64,000 bases of DNA, taken from Rufibacter sp. XAAS-G3-1. GTDB taxonomy: Bacteria; Bacteroidota; Bacteroidia; Cytophagales; Hymenobacteraceae. The translations under genes and the position numbers were made by a program. Shown one piece after another: positions 50,526 to 58,405 of the stretch. The stretch covers positions 1 through 64,000 of the forward strand of contig NZ_JABFAM010000012.1 of assembly GCF_013623775.1 (NCBI RefSeq), read 5' to 3'. The notes beneath the pieces are model-generated. The model had not been told where the DNA came from. It made no database searches and saw only the letters and a list, made by a program, of their open reading frames with translations. The stretch's first letter is position 1, and each line of letters begins with the position of its first letter.

Positions 50526-50732
50526 TGGCCCTCCCAAGCATCTTTAGAAACGGGGAGTGATTCCAGGGAGTTTTCGCGAAAACAAACCCAAAACAGAACC
50601 AGTGCTTTGTGTGTAGCTTTGGGAAAACCATTTCAGGTCTCATCCGGCAGTTTTCGTCTCCAAATGCGCTGCTTTTCCGTACGTCATTACAGATCATTTT
50701 AAACAATTGGCAAACCTACTGGTTGAAAGAGT
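50526..50732. other. Region before crtZ
   Basis: Worn TGTTTT copy at 50566-50597. TTTTAAACAATT at 50697-50708 contains a TTAAAC element like those before the sigma-factor gene. No gene. Confidence 0.45.
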
Positions 50733-51182
50733 ATGCTGACGAATGCGGCGATAGTAATAGGAATCTTTGTCACGATGGAACTGGTGGCGTGGGCGGTGCA
50801 CAAATACGTGTTGCACGGCTTTCTGTGGAGCATCCATAAGTCGCACCACACCAAGCACAACCATCTCTTTGAGCTCAATGATGTCTCCTTTGTGTTCTAC
50901 GGGGTCATTGCGGCCCTGTGCTTTATCTACGGCACAGAAACGCTGGACTACCGTTTCTGGATTGGGGTGGGCATTTCGCTGTACGGCGCGGCTTACTTTC
51001 TGGTGCATGATCTGTTTATCCATCGGCGATTAAAGCTGTTCGGGAAAACGAGAAGCACCTACCTCCGGGCCCTGGACATAGCGCACAAAGTACACCACAA
51101 AGCCAAAGGGAAAGACAACTCAGAGTCCTTCGGAATGCTCTGGGTTCATCCTAAATTCTTTCGTATCGCCCGGAAGCGTTAA
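50733..51182 (+). CDS. crtZ: Beta-carotene hydroxylase
   Basis: Non-haem di-iron membrane hydroxylase that adds 3-OH to beta-ionone rings, giving zeaxanthin or, with CrtW, astaxanthin. The 149 aa protein carries the full His set of fatty-acid-hydroxylase-superfamily enzymes: HKYVLH (23-28), HKSHH (35-39), HDLFIH (92-97) and HKVHH (118-122). Four membrane segments are predictable. It is the first gene of the carotenoid region, 29 bp before the MerR-type regulator gene on the same strand. No lycopene cyclase is present here, so its substrate is made by an enzyme encoded elsewhere. The identification by motif is strong. Confidence 0.94.
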   Translation: MLTNAAIVIGIFVTMELVAWAVHKYVLHGFLWSIHKSHHTKHNHLFELNDVSFVFYGVIAALCFIYGTETLDYRFWIGVGISLYGAAYFLVHDLFIHRRLKLFGKTRSTYLRALDIAHKVHHKAKGKDNSESFGMLWVHPKFFRIARKR

Positions 51183-51211: not shown

Positions 51212-52108
51212 GTGGCGCATTACTCTATTAAAGAGTTAGAGCATTTGTCTGGCATAAAGGCCCATACGCTTCGTATCTGGGAACAGCGGTACCAACTGCT
51301 GGCCCCCAAACGAACCGCTACCAACATACGGTTCTATGACGACGCCGACCTTAAGAACCTGCTCAACGTGGCTTTGCTGTACCAGGAAGGGTATAAGATC
51401 TCCAAAATCGCCAACTTTACGCCAGAGCAGATTGCCCTTGAGGTCATCAAAGTAACGCAAGCCGATCTGGGCCAGGATCAGTTCATCAACCAACTGATTA
51501 TTGCCATGGTTGAGCTGGACGAGGGCCTGTTTGAGCGGGCGCTGAGCCGGGCGGTGTTGCAACTGGGTTTCCCCCATTCTGTGCAGCAGGTTATTTACCC
51601 GTTCCTGAACAAAATAGGGCTGCTATGGCAGACGGGCAATATCACCCCCGCCCATGAGCATTTTATCAGCCAGCTCATCCGGCAGAAAATGCTGGTGGCC
51701 ATTGACGGGCAGCGGCTGAACCCACTGCCAGATGCCCCCAAAATCCTGCTGTATCTCCCCGAGGGTGAATTGCACGAATTGTCTTTATTATACAGCCACT
51801 TCCAGTTCAGGGCGATGGGGTTCCGCACCCTGTACCTGGGGCAGCATTTGCCATTGGAAGACCTGGTTAAAGCCTCGCAGCAGTACCAGCCCCATTATCT
51901 TTGTTCGGTCTTCACTACCGCACCCACCCGCGAAGACGTGGAAGAATACCTGCGGCAAGTGCTCCAACAGTTACCAGACGTTCAGTTGCTACTCAGCGGC
52001 TACGTCTTGCACCCCCAGCCCCACAACTTGCCCCCAAGAGTCAGGTATTTTGAGACCCTGGAAGAGTTCGCGCAATGGCTCTCGGAGTGTAGGCTAGTGC
52101 CTGCCTGA
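51212..52108 (+). CDS. MerR-family regulator with B12-binding domain (CarH/LitR-like)
   Basis: The 298 aa protein is likely a light-sensitive repressor using adenosylcobalamin. MerR HTH at 1-70: YSIKELEHLSGIKAHTLRIWEQRYQLLAPKRT. The B12 four-helix cap contains W139 followed nine residues later by E149-H150 (LLWQTGNITPAHEH), the W-x9-EH motif of CarH. In the Rossmann part, EGELHEL (184-190) with H188 is at the place of the cobalt-binding His. The start is GTG at 51212, 29 bp after crtZ. In CarH systems B12 makes the repressor tetrameric in the dark and light dissociates it. The spacing of these residues is what I see; photosensitivity is inferred from CarH. Confidence 0.85.
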   Translation: MAHYSIKELEHLSGIKAHTLRIWEQRYQLLAPKRTATNIRFYDDADLKNLLNVALLYQEGYKISKIANFTPEQIALEVIKVTQADLGQDQFINQLIIAMVELDEGLFERALSRAVLQLGFPHSVQQVIYPFLNKIGLLWQTGNITPAHEHFISQLIRQKMLVAIDGQRLNPLPDAPKILLYLPEGELHELSLLYSHFQFRAMGFRTLYLGQHLPLEDLVKASQQYQPHYLCSVFTTAPTREDVEEYLRQVLQQLPDVQLLLSGYVLHPQPHNLPPRVRYFETLEEFAQWLSECRLVPA

Positions 52109-52735
52109 TCTGCTTTCGGGAGCATTATTTTTCTACATGCCCGTCCATACCCCTTTCTGCGCCAGTTTTCCAGAACCGGAGCGTATTTGCGCCTTCCTCT
52201 ACGCAATCTAACACTCGCTCGCGGGACGCCAGCGAGTGGAGTCATTTCAAAGGACAGTCCAGCCTGTTTTCTTTGTTTTAGGCCTATTTCTATAAAACTG
52301 CCCCAAAACGAATAATCCTTGTACTTAGCACTTTAGTGCTGGTTTGTTTAAGGTTATGTTATGGCTGTTAAACAAAGTTTGTTTTACTAACTTTCTGTTT
52401 TCCTAGTTTACCGTGAACCCAGGAATTGAGAGAGGCTTTAATGCCAGCAAATATTACTCAGTTACGCCAAAGCACCTATTCAACGCAGATTCTCCTCTTA
52501 AGGGAAGAATCTGCGCTTAGCACGGCCATACGGGTGGGTAGTGAGCCAGACAATTCTTGAAGTGCCGTTAGTTTACAGTTTTATATCACCGTTTTTAGCT
52601 TGTTTTAGCAAAACCAGCCTGAAAACAGGGGGTAGAGGGGTGTTTCCTTCCCCAATTGCTGAAATGCTTTTGTAAATATTTTTTCAAGATTTGTTCAGCA
52701 AAAGTTAGCTATAGATTTCAGTAATTCGTATTATT
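52109..52735. other. Long control region between the CarH-like gene and the sigma-factor gene
   Basis: No gene is seen. It contains the CGCGGGACGCC palindrome with CACTCGCT arms (52212-52238), worn TGTTTT copies (52271-52311 and 52592-52630), TTTGTTTAA at 52343-52351 inverted to TTAAACAAA at 52368-52376, and a palindromic AAACAAAGTTTGTTT at 52371-52385. A 10-bp hairpin with GCAGATTCT arms is at 52484-52515. Confidence 0.5.
52343..52385. promoter_or_regulatory. GTTTAA/TTAAAC inverted repeat, distal candidate operator
   Basis: 9-bp perfect inverted arms 52343-52351 and 52368-52376 (16-base spacer), overlapping palindrome AAACAAAGTTTGTTT (52371-52385). The motif shares GTTTAA with the site next to the sigma-factor start. 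No binding evidence. Confidence 0.4.
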
Positions 52736-52763
52736 GTTTAATGTTTGTTTTTAAACGTTAAAC
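52736..52763. promoter_or_regulatory. Candidate operator directly upstream of the sigma-factor ATG
   Basis: GTTTAATGTTT at 52736-52746 pairs with AAACGTTAAAC at 52753-52763 (one mismatch, 6-base centre). It ends 3 bases before the ATG. Its right half contains TTAAACGTTAA, and the reverse complement TTAACGTTTAA recurs at 53280-53290 before crtI. It is a plausible site for the CarH-like regulator encoded 650 bp upstream. Confidence 0.5.
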
Positions 52764-52766
52764 AAA

Positions 52767-53282
52767 ATGACTGCACCAGAGTTTACTTCCATTGTGGAGC
52801 GCATGGCGCCTACCCTTCGTCCAGCTGCGTACAACCTGACCCGTGATAGTGATGATGCGAAGGATCTGGTGCAGGAGACTCTGCTGAAAGCCTTCGTGAA
52901 CCGCGACCGGTTTAAGGCGGGCACCAACCTGAAAGCGTGGCTGTACACCATCATGCGCAACACGTTCATCAATCATTACAACAAGGTAACCAAGCGTTCC
53001 AGCTCCGTAGACACCAACGACTACATCCAGACGCACCCCGCAGATGACCGGATGATTGCCGTGAACGGCGCGTCTGGGGAATTCGCCCTCAAGGACATCT
53101 ATGCCGCCATTGACCATCTGCCCGAGGAGCTGCGCACTCCTTTCATGATGTACTATGTGGGCTACAAGTACCTGGAGATTGCCGAGAAACTGAAACTGCC
53201 CATTGGCACCGTCAAGAACCGGATTCACCTGGCCCGCAAAGAATTGAAGCAGGAACTGAAAGGATACGACTACGCCGATTAA
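52767..53282 (+). CDS. ECF-type RNA polymerase sigma factor of the carotenoid cluster
   Basis: The 171 aa protein has region 2 (MAPTLRPAAYNLTRDSDDAKDLVQETLLKAF, about 12-42; RFKAGTNLKAWLYTIMRNTFINHYNK, with the region 2.3-2.4 aromatic residues) and region 4 (LPEELRTPFMMYYVGYKYLEIAEKLKLPIGTVKNRIHLARKELKQELKGY). No anti-sigma gene lies next to it. A location just before crtI-crtB is seen, as far as I recall, in related pigmented Bacteroidota, so it probably drives the crt genes. An 11-base palindromic element overlaps its stop (53280-53290). Control by the CarH-like protein is suggested by the operator-like palindrome at its start. Confidence 0.9.
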   Translation: MTAPEFTSIVERMAPTLRPAAYNLTRDSDDAKDLVQETLLKAFVNRDRFKAGTNLKAWLYTIMRNTFINHYNKVTKRSSSVDTNDYIQTHPADDRMIAVNGASGEFALKDIYAAIDHLPEELRTPFMMYYVGYKYLEIAEKLKLPIGTVKNRIHLARKELKQELKGYDYAD

Positions 53283-53424
53283 CGTTTAATTTCTTCAATA
53301 GGATTATAAAAGGTTCAAAGCTGGATTATGCTTAAAAAAGAATGTATCTTGTTTCGGTCATTAACCAGTTTTGCCAGTATAAGTACCTACAACAAGATTG
53401 TCCATTCATTTTGATGCTATCCAC
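53283..53424. other. Sigma factor to crtI spacer
   Basis: 140 bp, AT-rich; contains TTAACGTTTAA at 53280-53290 and no repeat hairpin. A second promoter for crtI is likely here, but no motif is certain. Confidence 0.4.
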
Positions 53425-54933
53425 ATGCAGGGTCTTCCCAGAAAAAAAGTAATTGTCATTGGGGCCGGGTTTGCCGGGCTAGCGGCCGCCGCCAGTATGG
53501 CGCAGGCCGGGTATGCAGTTACCCTGTTGGAGAAGAACGAAGTGGCCGGTGGGCGGGCGCGCTTATTCAAAGCCGAGGGCTTCACCTTTGACATGGGCCC
53601 CAGCTGGTACTGGATGCCCGACGTTTTTGAGCAGTTTTTCCAGAAATTCGGCAAAACCACCGCAGATTACTACCGCCTGGAACGCCTTGACCCTTCTTAC
53701 CAGGTCTTGTATGGACGGCAGGATGTCATGGAGTTGCCCGCGGGCATGCCTGAGTTGGAGGCGCTGTTTGAATCACTGGAACCAGGGTCGGCGGCGAGAC
53801 TGCGCACGTTTCTCAAGCAGGCTGCTTATAAATACGAGGTAGGCATCAATAACCTGGTGTACAAACCCAGCCGCTCGTTCTCAGAGTTTCTGGACGTGAA
53901 GCTGCTGGTAGATGTGCTGCGGCTGGATGTCTTCCAATCCATGCACAAGCACGTGCGCAAGTACTTCAAGCACCCAAGATTGATTCAGTTGATGGAGTTT
54001 CCCATCCTGTTTTTAGGAGCCTTGCCCCAGAACACGCCCGCGCTGTATAGCCTCATGAATTACGCCGATATATCGCTGGGCACTTGGTACCCCATGGGCG
54101 GCATGCACCAGATAGTGGAGGGCATGGTGGCCCTGGCGCAGGAACAGGGCGTGGACATACGGTTAGGCGAGGAAGTGGAAAGGCTGGAGTTGCAGAACGG
54201 CGCCATCACCCAAGTCATCACGGCAAAAGGCGCGTACGTAGCCGACGTGGTCATTGGCGGTTCTGATTACCACCACCTGGAGACCAAACTGCTGCCCCAG
54301 GAATCCCGCAGTTATACAGACAAGTACTGGGACTCCCGCGTTATGGCACCATCGTCACTTATTTTTTACCTGGGGGTAGATAAAAAGCTAGACGGGCTAC
54401 GCCACCATAACCTGTTCTTTGACGAAGATTTCGGGCCGCACGCCCATGAGATTTACACGCAACCGGCCTGGCCCAAGAAACCGCTGTTCTACGTGTCGGT
54501 GCCGTCCAAAACAGATCCAACGGTAGCGCCGGAAGGGAAGGAGAACCTGTTTATCCTCATTCCGGTGGCCCCGGACTTGCCGGACACCCAGGAAACCAGG
54601 GAGCGCTATTACCACATGGTCATGGACAGGCTGGAGCAGATCATTGGGCAGGAAATCCGGAGCCATGTCATATATAAGCGCAGCTACGCGCATAAAGATT
54701 TCATAAAAGATTACCACGCCTTTAAAGGCAATGCCTACGGACTGGCCAATACGCTGTTACAGACGGCGGTACTGAAACCCAGCCTGAAAAGCAAGAAAGT
54801 CCGCAACTTGTATTATACCGGTCAACTGACCGTTCCCGGCCCCGGTGTGCCGCCTTCCCTCATCTCGGGGCAGGTAGTGGCCGCCGAGGTCTTGAAAGAA
54901 TTCGCCCCGCAGGAAACCACCCTAACGCTATGA
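53425..54933 (+). CDS. crtI: Phytoene desaturase
   Basis: FAD-dependent desaturase converting phytoene to lycopene (or neurosporene). From the ATG at 53425 the protein has 502 aa. N-terminal dinucleotide site VIVIGAGFAGLAAAASMAQAGYAVTLLEKNEVAGGRARLF, then FDMGPSWYWMPDVFEQFF of the CrtI family. SLMNYADISLGTWYPMGGMHQIVEGM lies in the middle, and the C-terminal signature LYYTGQLTVPGPGVPPSLISGQVVA is complete. An upstream TTG (53398) would add nine residues and is less likely. Its stop overlaps the crtB ATG by 4 bp (ATGA), so the two are translationally coupled. Confidence 0.96.
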   Translation: MQGLPRKKVIVIGAGFAGLAAAASMAQAGYAVTLLEKNEVAGGRARLFKAEGFTFDMGPSWYWMPDVFEQFFQKFGKTTADYYRLERLDPSYQVLYGRQDVMELPAGMPELEALFESLEPGSAARLRTFLKQAAYKYEVGINNLVYKPSRSFSEFLDVKLLVDVLRLDVFQSMHKHVRKYFKHPRLIQLMEFPILFLGALPQNTPALYSLMNYADISLGTWYPMGGMHQIVEGMVALAQEQGVDIRLGEEVERLELQNGAITQVITAKGAYVADVVIGGSDYHHLETKLLPQESRSYTDKYWDSRVMAPSSLIFYLGVDKKLDGLRHHNLFFDEDFGPHAHEIYTQPAWPKKPLFYVSVPSKTDPTVAPEGKENLFILIPVAPDLPDTQETRERYYHMVMDRLEQIIGQEIRSHVIYKRSYAHKDFIKDYHAFKGNAYGLANTLLQTAVLKPSLKSKKVRNLYYTGQLTVPGPGVPPSLISGQVVAAEVLKEFAPQETTLTL

Positions 54934-55784
54934 CCAAGATTTCAGCGCCCATGACCCTGTTTGACAACACCACGCTGGAATGCAGTAAACTCATTACGCA
55001 GCGCTACAGCACGTCTTTTACGTTGGGCATTAAAACGCTGCACCCCCGGTTCCATGATCCCATTTACGCCATCTACGGGTTTGTGCGCTTCGCCGATGAG
55101 ATTGTGGATACGTTCCACACGTATGATAGGGCTGGTTTGCTGGAGCGTTTCCGGCAGGAGACGTACCAGGCCCTGGAGGAGAAAATCAGCCTGAACCCGG
55201 TGCTGCACGCCTTCCAGATGGTGGTGAACCAGTACCGCATTGATCGGGAGTTCATTGACGCCTTCCTGCACAGCATGGAGATGGATCTGTTTGACCAGAA
55301 GTACAACTGTGATCTGTACGAGGAATACATCTACGGCTCGGCCGAAGTGGTGGGGCTCATGTGCCTGCGCGTTTTCTGCGAGGAAGACGAGGCCATGTTC
55401 AATCGCCTGAAATCCTCGGCCTGTTCTTTGGGGGCGGCGTTCCAGAAAGTGAATTTTTTGAGAGACATCCGCAGCGATTTTCAGGATAGGGGCCGCGTGT
55501 ATTTCCCGCAGGTAGATTTCCGGTCGTTCTGCAACAAAGATAAGGAAGAGATTGAGCGTGACATCCAGCAGGATTTTGATGATGCCTATAAAGGAATCAT
55601 CGCCTTGCCCAAGGGGGCCCAACTGGGGGTTTACCTGGCCTACATCTATTATTTGAAGCTATTCAAGAAAATTAAACAGCTGCCCGCCGCCCAAATTTTG
55701 GCAGAACGCGTAAGAGTGCCTGATAATACGAAGTTGGCTTTGCTATTAAGTTCGTATATTAGGTACCAGTTTAATACCATGTAA
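54930..55784 (+). CDS. crtB: Phytoene synthase
   Basis: Condenses two geranylgeranyl diphosphates to phytoene. The 284 aa squalene/phytoene synthase has the first Asp-rich motif in VRFADEIVDTFH (about 49-60) and the second in NFLRDIRSDFQDRGRVYFP (about 172-190), plus FEEDEAMFNRLKSSACSLGAAFQKVN before it. The start ATG overlaps the crtI stop. The stop TAA shares one base with the ATG of the next gene, so crtI, crtB and the 176-aa gene form one translationally linked unit. No oddities. Confidence 0.96.
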   Translation: MTKISAPMTLFDNTTLECSKLITQRYSTSFTLGIKTLHPRFHDPIYAIYGFVRFADEIVDTFHTYDRAGLLERFRQETYQALEEKISLNPVLHAFQMVVNQYRIDREFIDAFLHSMEMDLFDQKYNCDLYEEYIYGSAEVVGLMCLRVFCEEDEAMFNRLKSSACSLGAAFQKVNFLRDIRSDFQDRGRVYFPQVDFRSFCNKDKEEIERDIQQDFDDAYKGIIALPKGAQLGVYLAYIYYLKLFKKIKQLPAAQILAERVRVPDNTKLALLLSSYIRYQFNTM

Positions 55785-56314
55785 TGCAGATAATCGCTAC
55801 GCTTCTTTCCTTCTGTTTCTTTCTGCTGGCGTTTCAGCAGAAGTCAGATCCGTATTCCCATACTTCTCTGTTGAACTATTACCAGACGGCCACCAAGAGC
55901 GAAGAGACGGCAGCGCGGTTTATGGCGCTCATGGACAAGTACCAGGGAAAAGACCCGCTTAAGCTGGGGTACAAGGCTGTTTCGCACGCCCTTATGGCCA
56001 AACACGTCTGGAGCCCCTATGCCAAGCTGAAATACCTGCGCCAGTCTTCTGAGATTTTTGAGGAGGCGGTGGCTTTAGATAAACTAGACCCCGAGGTACG
56101 TTTCCTTCGTTTTTCCATTGAGCACTACATACCCCGGTACCTGAACATGAGCAGCCATTTAGAGGATGATAAAAGGGTTTTCATGGCCGCCATCTTAAAA
56201 CATCCGCGCTCCGGCATCTCGGCCGAAACCGTGAAGATCATGCGGGATTTCCTGCTGCGCAAAGACTTGCTCTCTGCGCAGGAGCAACAACAGGTGGCAA
56301 ATCTCAGCCTGTAA
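55784..56314 (+). CDS. Unknown exported or membrane-anchored protein of the carotenoid operon
   Basis: The 176 aa protein begins with a hydrophobic segment (MQIIATLLSFCFFLLAFQQ), a signal peptide or N-terminal anchor. The rest is helical and polar: LNYYQTATKSEETAARFMALMDKYQGKDPLKLGYKAVSHALMAKHVWSPYAKLKYLRQSSEIFEEAVALDKLDPEVRFLRFSIEHYIPRYL. The last part recalls a TPR-like or helical-repeat fold, with RFLRFSIEHYIP the most conserved-looking piece. No family is recognised. TAATG coupling to crtB argues for a role with carotenoid synthesis or placement in the membrane. A good candidate for a new carotenoid-associated protein family. Confidence 0.8.
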   Translation: MQIIATLLSFCFFLLAFQQKSDPYSHTSLLNYYQTATKSEETAARFMALMDKYQGKDPLKLGYKAVSHALMAKHVWSPYAKLKYLRQSSEIFEEAVALDKLDPEVRFLRFSIEHYIPRYLNMSSHLEDDKRVFMAAILKHPRSGISAETVKIMRDFLLRKDLLSAQEQQQVANLSL

Positions 56315-56408
56315 ACATTTGCTCTCTGTAGCTGCTGTTTACATAGGTTTTAGAGTAAAAAGCAGGAGTACGCACAAACAATCTGGTAGAAGAACTTGTT
56401 TAGAGGTT

Positions 56409-57254
56409 ATGCGTCAGCTACAGGTACATATTGATTCAAGTTCAGGCTTTTGCTTCGGGGTAATCTATGCGATTCAGATGGCCGAAGACCTTTTGGAGGA
56501 ACAGGGTTACCTGTATTGTCTGGGCGATATTGTGCACAACGATGTAGAGGTGGAACGCCTGCAGAAAAAAGGGTTGCGCATTATCAACTATGAAGCGCTC
56601 AGTACCCTGCGCGATGAATGTGTGCTCATCAGGGCGCACGGCGAGCCGCCGTCTACCTACCAGATCGCCATGGAAAATAACCTGACCCTGGTAGATGCCT
56701 CTTGCCCCGTGGTGCTGAAACTGCAGAACCGCATCAAGACCTCCTTTGACAAAAAAGACCAGATCTTTATCTACGGCAAGCACGGCCACGCCGAAGTATT
56801 GGGTCTGTTGGGCCAGACCAACAACGAAGCGGTCGTGTTCGAGAACCTGGATGAGTTGCTCCGCCACGAACTGCCCCAGAACATTACGCTCTACAGCCAA
56901 ACCACCAAAAGCACCGACAGCTTTTACCGCATTAAAAACGAACTGGAAACCCGCGGCTATTCCGTAGCAGCCAACGACACCATCTGCCGCCAGGTGTCTA
57001 ACCGCGACAAGGAGCTGCGGCGCTTCGCCCAACGGTTCGACAAGATTGTGTTCGTCTCCGGTACCAAGTCGTCTAACGGGCGGGTCTTGTACCAGGTCTG
57101 CAAAGACACCAACCCCAATACCTACTTCGTGTCTATGGTAGAAGAACTCAACCCCGAGTGGTTTGAGGCCGGAAACACCATTGGCATCTGCGGCGCCACC
57201 TCCACGCCCATGTGGCTCATGGAAGAAGTGCGGGATGCCTTGTTGACGTTTTAG
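56409..57254 (+). CDS. ispH: 4-hydroxy-3-methylbut-2-enyl diphosphate reductase
   Basis: Last enzyme of the MEP pathway, an iron-sulfur protein giving IPP and DMAPP. From the ATG at 56409 the protein has 281 aa. The three cluster-binding cysteines are C15 (SGFCFGV), C99 (DASCPVV) and C193 (DTICRQVSNR). RAHGEPP and the final GICGATSTPMWLMEEV are family marks. An upstream ATG (56319) begins a non-family stretch and is rejected. It is 94 bp after the unknown gene, probably in the same operon as crtI-crtB, which ties isoprenoid supply to carotenoid demand. A 7-base tandem array follows its stop. Confidence 0.95.
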   Translation: MRQLQVHIDSSSGFCFGVIYAIQMAEDLLEEQGYLYCLGDIVHNDVEVERLQKKGLRIINYEALSTLRDECVLIRAHGEPPSTYQIAMENNLTLVDASCPVVLKLQNRIKTSFDKKDQIFIYGKHGHAEVLGLLGQTNNEAVVFENLDELLRHELPQNITLYSQTTKSTDSFYRIKNELETRGYSVAANDTICRQVSNRDKELRRFAQRFDKIVFVSGTKSSNGRVLYQVCKDTNPNTYFVSMVEELNPEWFEAGNTIGICGATSTPMWLMEEVRDALLTF

Positions 57255-57289: not shown

Positions 57290-57691
57290 ATAGAGATTGG
57301 AGAAGATGCCTGGTTTTTGGCCTTTGGGGTAAACCTACTATAGCGCAGATTTACTTCCGTGACGTGTTGCAGTTCGTTAGTCACGGAAGTAAATCTGCGC
57401 CATAGAAAGATAACATTACGTTGTCTTTCTCCCTTGTTGGTGTTCTCACCCTAGCCGTCTGGCTAAGGAGAAGCGGGGGCATTTCCCCTTGCACAAGTAC
57501 CTCGTTACAGGGTGACGAGGCTACATGGCCGGTTATTCCGTAGCGACGTTACACGGTAACGTCGTACACATTCCTGCGTTATGGTGTTATCACCACCAAG
57601 TACTTGTAAGAACAGTCCCTGCGCTTATCAAACAGAGTGATCACAAAGAGTGGTACCTTCGTAAGTATAGGATCATCAGAGTAAATCCGTT
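57290..57691. repeat. Palindrome cluster between ispH and crtW
   Basis: A perfect 21-bp hairpin (57343-57363 with 57380-57400; 16-base loop), TAGCC-GTCT-GGCTA (57452-57465), CCTCGT-N9-ACGAGG (57501-57521) and CGACGTTAC-ACG-GTAACGTCG (57544-57564). The last two share the inner pattern GTTACA/GGTnAC. TACCTTCG at 57654-57661 could be a weak -7 promoter element for crtW. No gene. Confidence 0.65.
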
Positions 57692-57716
57692 TTGAGCCAG
57701 TTTTTCAAAAAACATA
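57689..57716. repeat. Worn TGTTTT-family copy forming the crtW start
   Basis: CGTTTTGAGCCAGTTTTTC followed by AAAAAACATACC. The TTG start codon of crtW lies in its fourth to sixth bases. Confidence 0.55.
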
Positions 57717-58405
57717 CCGGAATCATCATTGCCATCACCATTCTGCTGACCTGGGGGAGTGTGCTCTGGTTTCTGCTGCACTGGGAAGTCAACTTTTCTT
57801 CGCCGCTAACTTACCTGGCGATGCTGGGGATGACGCATCTGTACACAGGCCTTTTCATTACCGCCCATGATGCCATGCACGGCGTGGTTGCGCCTGGTAA
57901 CAAGAAGCTGAACACGTTCATTGGCACCTTTTGCGCAGGGTTGTTTGCCTACAACTACTACGGCCGGCTTTACCCCAAACACCACCTGCACCACCGCCAC
58001 GTGGCCACCGACCAAGACCCCGACTACCACGGCGGCAACTTCTTTCTGTGGTTCTTCAGCTTCGCGCGGCAGTACATCACAGTGGTGCAGGTGCTGCTCA
58101 TGGCGGGTACCTATCATCTGCTGCAACTCTGGTTCCCTATGGAGAACATCATTCTGTTTTGGATGGTACCGGCGGTGATGGCTACTTTTCAGCTATTCTA
58201 CTTCGGGACGTACCTACCCCACCGGGGCGAGCACGACCAGGACAACCGGCATAAATCTTCTACCCAAGGCAGAAACCACCTGTGGGCTTTTATCAGCTGT
58301 TATTTCTTCGGATACCATTATGAACACCATGACAAACCGTATTTGCCCTGGTGGAAGCTTTATCAGGAGAAAGACCGGTTGGTAAAAGGGCAACAATCGT
58401 TTTGA
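57692..58405 (+). CDS. crtW: Beta-carotene ketolase (CrtW type)
   Basis: Di-iron membrane oxygenase that adds 4-keto groups to beta-ionone rings. The 237 aa protein has the histidine motifs HDAMH (59-63), HHLHHRH (97-103), TDQDPDYHG, FGTYLPHR (171-178), HYEHH (209-213) and PWWKL (219-223). The start is TTG at 57692; no ATG exists before residue 44, and the first codons (SQFFKKH) come from a worn TGTTTT-family hairpin. It is about 440 bp beyond ispH, so it may be transcribed separately. With CrtZ the cell can make astaxanthin or related ketocarotenoids, if a cyclase is encoded elsewhere. Confidence 0.88.
   Translation: MSQFFKKHTGIIIAITILLTWGSVLWFLLHWEVNFSSPLTYLAMLGMTHLYTGLFITAHDAMHGVVAPGNKKLNTFIGTFCAGLFAYNYYGRLYPKHHLHHRHVATDQDPDYHGGNFFLWFFSFARQYITVVQVLLMAGTYHLLQLWFPMENIILFWMVPAVMATFQLFYFGTYLPHRGEHDQDNRHKSSTQGRNHLWAFISCYFFGYHYEHHDKPYLPWWKLYQEKDRLVKGQQSF

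Follow-up and report, generated by a model that had tools for sequence, protein, structure and literature searches.

Upstream of the gene for an ECF-type sigma factor, within the carotenoid cluster of a 5.3-Mb Rufibacter genome (Hymenobacteraceae), we found two copies of a 32-bp inverted repeat, TTGTTTAA-N16-TTAAACAA, which is very probably, judging from its sequence and its distribution, the dark binding site of the CarH-type B12 photoreceptor encoded in the same cluster (a regulator 76 to 81% identical to that of the nearest named Rufibacter species). All positions refer to the window, i.e., the whole stretch of 64,000 nucleotides that was analyzed. We consider it quite likely that a Bacteroidota CarH here acts through dark operator binding, release by light, and a sigma relay with feedback. 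In the dark, CarH with bound adenosylcobalamin (AdoCbl) would occupy the operator that covers the sigma promoter's -7 box and start site as well as a second operator copy, usually six helical turns upstream, and RNA polymerase would be blocked. Light would break the cobalt-carbon bond and release CarH, whereupon the sigma gene would be transcribed and crtI-crtB too, probably by read-through. The ECF sigma factor would then activate the crtZ-carH and ispH promoters (AAC-N17/18-GTT), such that isoprenoid and carotenoid synthesis would rise while the repressor pool is refilled, amounting to a negative feedback. The sequences themselves show that the regulator belongs to the CarH family and has its ligand residues, that the operator is conserved, co-occurs with CarH, and lies over the promoter, and that an ECF-type motif is shared. 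In this scheme we infer binding by CarH, repression rather than activation, dependence on light and B12, and the specificity of the sigma factor, with dark repression, light release, and dependence on B12 modeled on characterized CarH proteins. Counting against the scheme are a glutamine in place of the histidine found at position 132 of Thermus CarH, half-sites that are inverted and not tandem direct repeats, and the absence of an ECF-type motif at crtI.

The preliminary description had picked out two palindromes ahead of the sigma gene, and both proved exact: GTTTAATGTTT-N6-AAACGTTAAAC at 52736-52763 is the inner part of the 32-bp element at 52734-52765, and the pair at 52343-52376 is a second copy of it (52344-52375), again with a 16-bp spacer. 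That the two follow one design had been missed. A genome-wide search for the palindrome, as had been suggested, returned just these two sites at up to one mismatch in 5.3 Mb, both of them preceding the sigma gene, versus 0 for a reversed-pattern control; about 0.0009 perfect sites would be expected from the genome composition. The right arm, TTAAACAA, contains TnnACA, a core that occurs in both arms as an inverted repeat and that is the core of the half-site nnnnTnnACAn reported for the CarH proteins of Thermus, Bacillus, and myxobacteria (PMC9304148). The half-sites point toward each other at a distance of 24 bp and do not repeat every 11 bp, and operator design is described as plastic within the CarH/LitR family (PMC9304148). 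Immediately inward of the arms, 66 distinct perfect sites show a preference for T on the left and A on the right.

The distribution of the operator across the phylum followed that of CarH. We sampled 395 genomes from across the Bacteroidota and called CarH homologues at E ≤ 1e-25; the operator had been defined in the home family before being tested in this sample, and a few genomes belong to both sets. A CarH homologue was present in 82 genomes. The perfect operator occurred in 47, each of which was CarH-positive, and in 0 of the 313 CarH-negative genomes (Fisher 7e-39, a value that ignores shared ancestry, as the counts come from related genomes and are not independent events). In numbers of perfect sites, CarH-positive genomes held 99 versus 4 for the reversed-pattern control, and CarH-negative genomes 0 versus 2. 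Genomes with the operator span 21 genera and 9 families. Among the 35 CarH-positive genomes that have no perfect site, some carry N17 versions with two mismatches, and no operator site was found in the genomes of remote CarH homologues.

The genes that follow the operator elsewhere fit a light regulon. In three loci where carH is directly followed by crtI, without a sigma gene, the operator precedes crtI or carH; in six Flavobacteriaceae-like loci, it lies 1 bp before crtI; and in three loci whose sigma gene lies apart from carH, that sigma gene retains it. Rhodopsin genes stand close behind the operator in four loci (two by Pfam PF01036, two by reading of the sequence), which suggests that CarH controls rhodopsin expression in other Bacteroidota. 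A photolyase gene in one locus and a PTPS gene in two (one of them by sequence) lie directly behind it. In several genera (eight loci), a DUF4397 lipoprotein gene, mostly divergent from a THUMP-like methyltransferase gene, has the operator in its promoter region, suggesting a role of DUF4397 in the light response. Because the targets are light-related, include loci without the sigma factor, and keep the site where the sigma gene is unlinked, this comparison points to CarH, rather than the sigma factor, as the regulator to which the operator belongs.

On the plus strand, the cluster reads crtZ-like, carH, ECF sigma, crtI, crtB, a gene for a 176-aa protein, ispH, and crtW-like, an order shared by almost all of the 36 genomes examined from the same family; coordinates are collected in Table 1. 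Between crtZ and carH the gap is 29 bp, and it is short in most family loci, so the two genes are probably cotranscribed. The 176-aa protein (55784-56314), whose position between crtB and ispH is conserved across the family, has a likely signal peptide as judged by eye, and searches of Pfam and NCBIfam returned no match to it.

Table 1. Genes and predicted regulatory elements of the carotenoid cluster, in window positions.
Feature	Position	Strand	Remark
Predicted ECF-type promoter of crtZ-carH, AAC-N17-GTT	50701..50726	+	AAC at -31 from crtZ ATG
crtZ-like carotene hydroxylase	50733..51182	+	PF04116
CarH/LitR-type MerR regulator, AdoCbl-binding domain	51212..52108	+	GTG start, 298 aa
Distal predicted CarH operator TTGTTTAAGGTTATGTTATGGCTGTTAAACAA	52344..52375		Centre 390 bp upstream of proximal
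Degenerate operator slot TTGTAAAT-N16-TTCAGCAA	52670..52701		5 mismatches; 64 bp upstream of proximal
Predicted housekeeping promoter of sigma gene	52705..52736	+	-33 TTAG(C) at 52705, 20-nt spacer, -7 box
Proximal predicted CarH operator TTGTTTAATGTTTGTTTTTAAACGTTAAACAA	52734..52765		Covers -7 box and predicted start site
ECF-type sigma factor, 171 aa	52767..53282	+	PF04542 and PF08281
crtI-type phytoene desaturase	53425..54933	+	NCBIfam NF058655 CrtID, above cut-off
crtB-type phytoene synthase	54930..55784	+	PF00494; start overlaps crtI stop
Predicted ECF-type promoter of ispH, AAC-N18-GTT	56376..56403	+	AAC at -32 from ATG
ispH, 4-hydroxy-3-methylbut-2-enyl diphosphate reductase	56409..57254	+	Above cut-off
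crtW-like beta-carotene ketolase	57692..58405	+	Cluster member without ECF-type or operator motif

Support for a sigma relay comes from footprinting by sequence conservation. ECF promoters carry AAC in the -35 box, and AAC-N17-GTT was found before crtZ in 32 of 36 family genomes, where shuffled sequences would give 0.4, with the AAC nearly always 31 bp before the crtZ ATG among the genomes that have the motif. Before ispH, AAC-N17/18-GTT was found in 30 of 34 family genomes; before crtI, crtB, or crtW, the motif was not found. The motif by itself is not rare genome-wide (35 matches versus 40 in the control), and a genome-wide listing of the sigma regulon from it was rejected on these counts. 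An excess of AAC-N17-GTT before an upstream hydrolase gene (6 of 10) was likewise set aside, as the positions differ between genomes. From these data, the sigma factor probably relays the signal to crtZ(-carH) and ispH and feeds back on carH, since carH follows crtZ, a gene with a predicted ECF-type promoter, after 29 bp. In the stretches 50702-50724 and 56377-56400, the -10 boxes predicted for crtZ and ispH come just about 10 bp before the respective ATG, so both transcripts may have little or no leader.

For crtI-crtB the layout differs. No terminator-like site was found between the sigma gene and crtI, the gap between them is just 9 to 53 bp in a dozen loci, and an ECF-type motif is lacking at crtI; we therefore take crtI-crtB to be probable operon partners of the sigma gene and, as such, under direct CarH control. 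Of the sigma cascade for crtI-crtB-ispH put forward in the preliminary description, a probable sigma-dependent part can thus be seen at ispH, which shares the ECF-type motif with crtZ-carH, but not at crtI or crtB. These same observations, together with the Flavobacteriaceae-like genomes that place the operator directly before crtI without any sigma gene, would also fit a simpler arrangement in which sigma-crtI-crtB is one operon directly repressed by CarH, the sigma factor merely tuning side genes (crtZ-carH, ispH) or unrelated stress genes. We hold this to be possible, if tentative: the strictly placed motif common to crtZ and ispH speaks against it; so do the three dozen family genomes in which the sigma gene has stayed next to crt genes, and the loci in which it is not linked to carH yet still carries the operator.

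The regulator has an N-terminal MerR helix-turn-helix (HTH) domain (PF13411, E = 3.7e-16) and, in its C-terminal part, a B12-binding_2 four-helix bundle (PF02607, E = 1.9e-10), followed in strength by a weak match to the B12-binding Rossmann domain (PF02310, 25.1 bits, under the cut-off of 32.1). Among solved structures, Thermus CarH/LitR chains are the closest to it (E about 1e-20), and a structure search with an AF2 model (pLDDT 80.9, pTM 0.68) returned as top match Thermus CarH bound to AdoCbl and DNA, at about 25% identity. The best-scoring NCBIfam family was NF052513 CarH, at 103 bits versus a cut-off of 400 that appears to be set for a narrow clade, so we do not count the lower score as a defining failure. 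The CarH-like residue pattern noted earlier, W139-x9-E149-H150 plus H188, was borne out: these residues align with W131/E141/H142/H177, the AdoCbl-binding residues of Thermus CarH, and they are conserved in nearly all of 56 aligned relatives and invariant in one alignment of homologues (A1). AdoCbl should be available in the cell, because the genome encodes a PduO-type adenosyltransferase (PF01923, 2.3e-64) and, by reading of the sequence, a methylmalonyl-CoA-mutase-like gene.

His132 of Thermus CarH, the upper ligand of the light-state bis-His cobalamin at a position that varies within the family, is replaced here by Gln140, and no aligned Bacteroidota homologue has a histidine there. In the Thermus protein, His132 drives tetramer disassembly, and most of the H132A variant is still tetrameric following illumination (PMC10442372). 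Gln, Tyr, or Arg at this position has been described in other B12 photoreceptors, and CtMerR and SasPcob have no upper His, yet are described as light-responsive (PMC11796333). Given the replacement by Gln140 and the variation among other photoreceptors, the regulator is a CarH homologue whose switch possibly differs from that of Thermus. The impaired light-driven disassembly of H132A also lends some weight to a CarA-like regulator that binds the operators regardless of B12 or light, the real signal entering elsewhere, as does a homologue (L118) without the EH and His188 residues. We judge this unlikely in view of the near-complete conservation of W139, E149, H150, and H188, the light response of CtMerR and SasPcob, the AdoCbl-making adenosyltransferase, and a regulon that includes rhodopsin and photolyase genes. 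The genome with L118 (G033:C55) holds a second CarH homologue, L119 (G033:C34); L118, which adjoins sigma-crt, has lost the EH and the lower axial His, while L119 keeps them, a pair reminiscent of CarA/CarH of Myxococcus.

For dark repression by this CarH homologue, the register of the operator over the sigma promoter is informative. TAnnTTTG is the Bacteroidota housekeeping -7 consensus, and a box of this type, TATTATTG at 52729-52736, overlaps the left arm of the proximal operator, which ends 1 bp before the sigma ATG; the operator proposed at the start of the sigma gene thus has comparative support. Of the 35 loci with a proximal operator, 33 have a TAnnTTTG-like box, allowing one mismatch in TTTG, that lies across the left arm; conservation of the -33 element is weak (13 loci). 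A sigma-70 type promoter scan gave fewer matches than in shuffles, a poor yield that is expected for Bacteroidota. Upstream of the sigma ATG in 39 loci, at up to three mismatches, we found the proximal operator in 35 and the distal one in 27; the centres of the pair are 63 to 64.5 bp apart in 22 loci, about six helical turns, which places both operators on the same face of the DNA. Relatives keep a real operator in the slot that matches 52670-52701, whereas here this slot is degenerate and a perfect copy lies 390 bp upstream instead. GC-rich members retain the AT-rich operator in an N17 form with two mismatches.

This register bears on whether the regulator might instead activate the sigma promoter in light, MerR-style, as its MerR fold and the description of Streptomyces LitR as promoting litS transcription in light (PMC12705666) would allow. 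We find this improbable: overlap with the -7 box and the predicted start is a position that normally blocks polymerase, and characterized CarH proteins repress (PMC8156234). Least probable is that another regulator or the sigma factor itself reads the palindrome with CarH as a bystander, for although operator binding by CarH is a prediction and the sigma gene lies right beside the operator in this genus, every perfect-site genome among the 395 has CarH, clusters that have no sigma gene show the operator ahead of crtI and carH, and the arm contains the CarH half-site core TnnACA.

CarH/LitR photoreceptors are established (PMC8156234). With the CarH proteins of Thermus thermophilus and Bacillus megaterium, the regulator shares the MerR HTH, the B12 four-helix bundle and Rossmann domains, W-x9-EH, the lower axial His, the genomic link to crt genes, and the half-site core TnnACA; it differs by Gln140 for His132, by an inverted repeat with a 16-bp spacer where theirs has three or four tandem 11-bp direct repeats, and by having a sigma gene as main predicted target. 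A LitR-to-ECF-sigma-to-crt cascade is already known from Streptomyces coelicolor, where B12-LitR controls the ECF sigma gene litS, which drives carotenoid genes (PMC12705666), and the same linkage of a B12-LitR-type gene, an ECF sigma gene, and crt genes is present here. This case lies in a different phylum, however, its operator position suggests repression where LitR is described as activating litS, and its crtI-crtB probably belong to the sigma operon. In Myxococcus xanthus, with CarA/CarH and CarQ-CarR-CarS, CarH-type repressors and an ECF sigma factor also serve light-induced carotenogenesis (PMC8156234, PMC9304148), but there the sigma factor CarQ is held by the membrane anti-sigma factor CarR and acts in a separate pathway, while here the sigma gene itself bears the CarH-type operator. 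No anti-sigma-like gene was recognized beside it, the sole cluster gene without an assignment having no Pfam or NCBIfam match.

We found no Bacteroidota CarH operator or regulon in the open full-text literature, and for the light-pigmented Chryseobacterium lacus, where no car or lit genes were found, the mechanism was called unknown (PMC7064467). What appears to be new is the operator built as an inverted repeat, the regulon spanning the phylum, and the lack of the bis-His ligand (Gln140). Taken together, these features would define a Bacteroidota CarH grammar, whose chances we see as evenly balanced: inverted TnnACA half-sites 24 bp apart, paired six turns apart astride the promoter, a bis-His-free receptor, and one regulon code with two routes. 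If so, a single code would run a light regulon of carotenoid, rhodopsin, photolyase, pterin, and lipoprotein genes, by direct control in Flavobacteriaceae-like genomes and by an ECF sigma relay with carH negative feedback in Hymenobacteraceae and others. The co-occurrence of operator and CarH makes this light-response network directly testable, and the operator predicts light-responsive genes, including proteorhodopsin-type genes, in many sequenced Bacteroidota. It could also serve as a green-light optogenetic operator with sigma-amplified output in a phylum that has few such tools.

Two further candidate sites were rejected. The recurrence of TTAACGTTTAA reported at 53280-53290 is present, one base off (53279-53289), yet is no third operator; we take it for a chance occurrence because it has no TTGTTTAA arm, is unconserved in 14 other Rufibacter-clade loci, and sits over the sigma stop codon. 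The half-site TTAAACAA at 50699, before crtZ, has no partner arm, and its conserved register is that of an ECF-type -35 box. Separately, a large inverted repeat containing GCGCAGATTTACTTCCGTGAC lies at 57329-57414, with a similar but shorter copy at 52484-52515. This half gave 73 genome matches at up to three mismatches (control: 0), which often form inverted pairs with a spacing of about 40 bp, and looks like a family of REP-type palindromic repeats.
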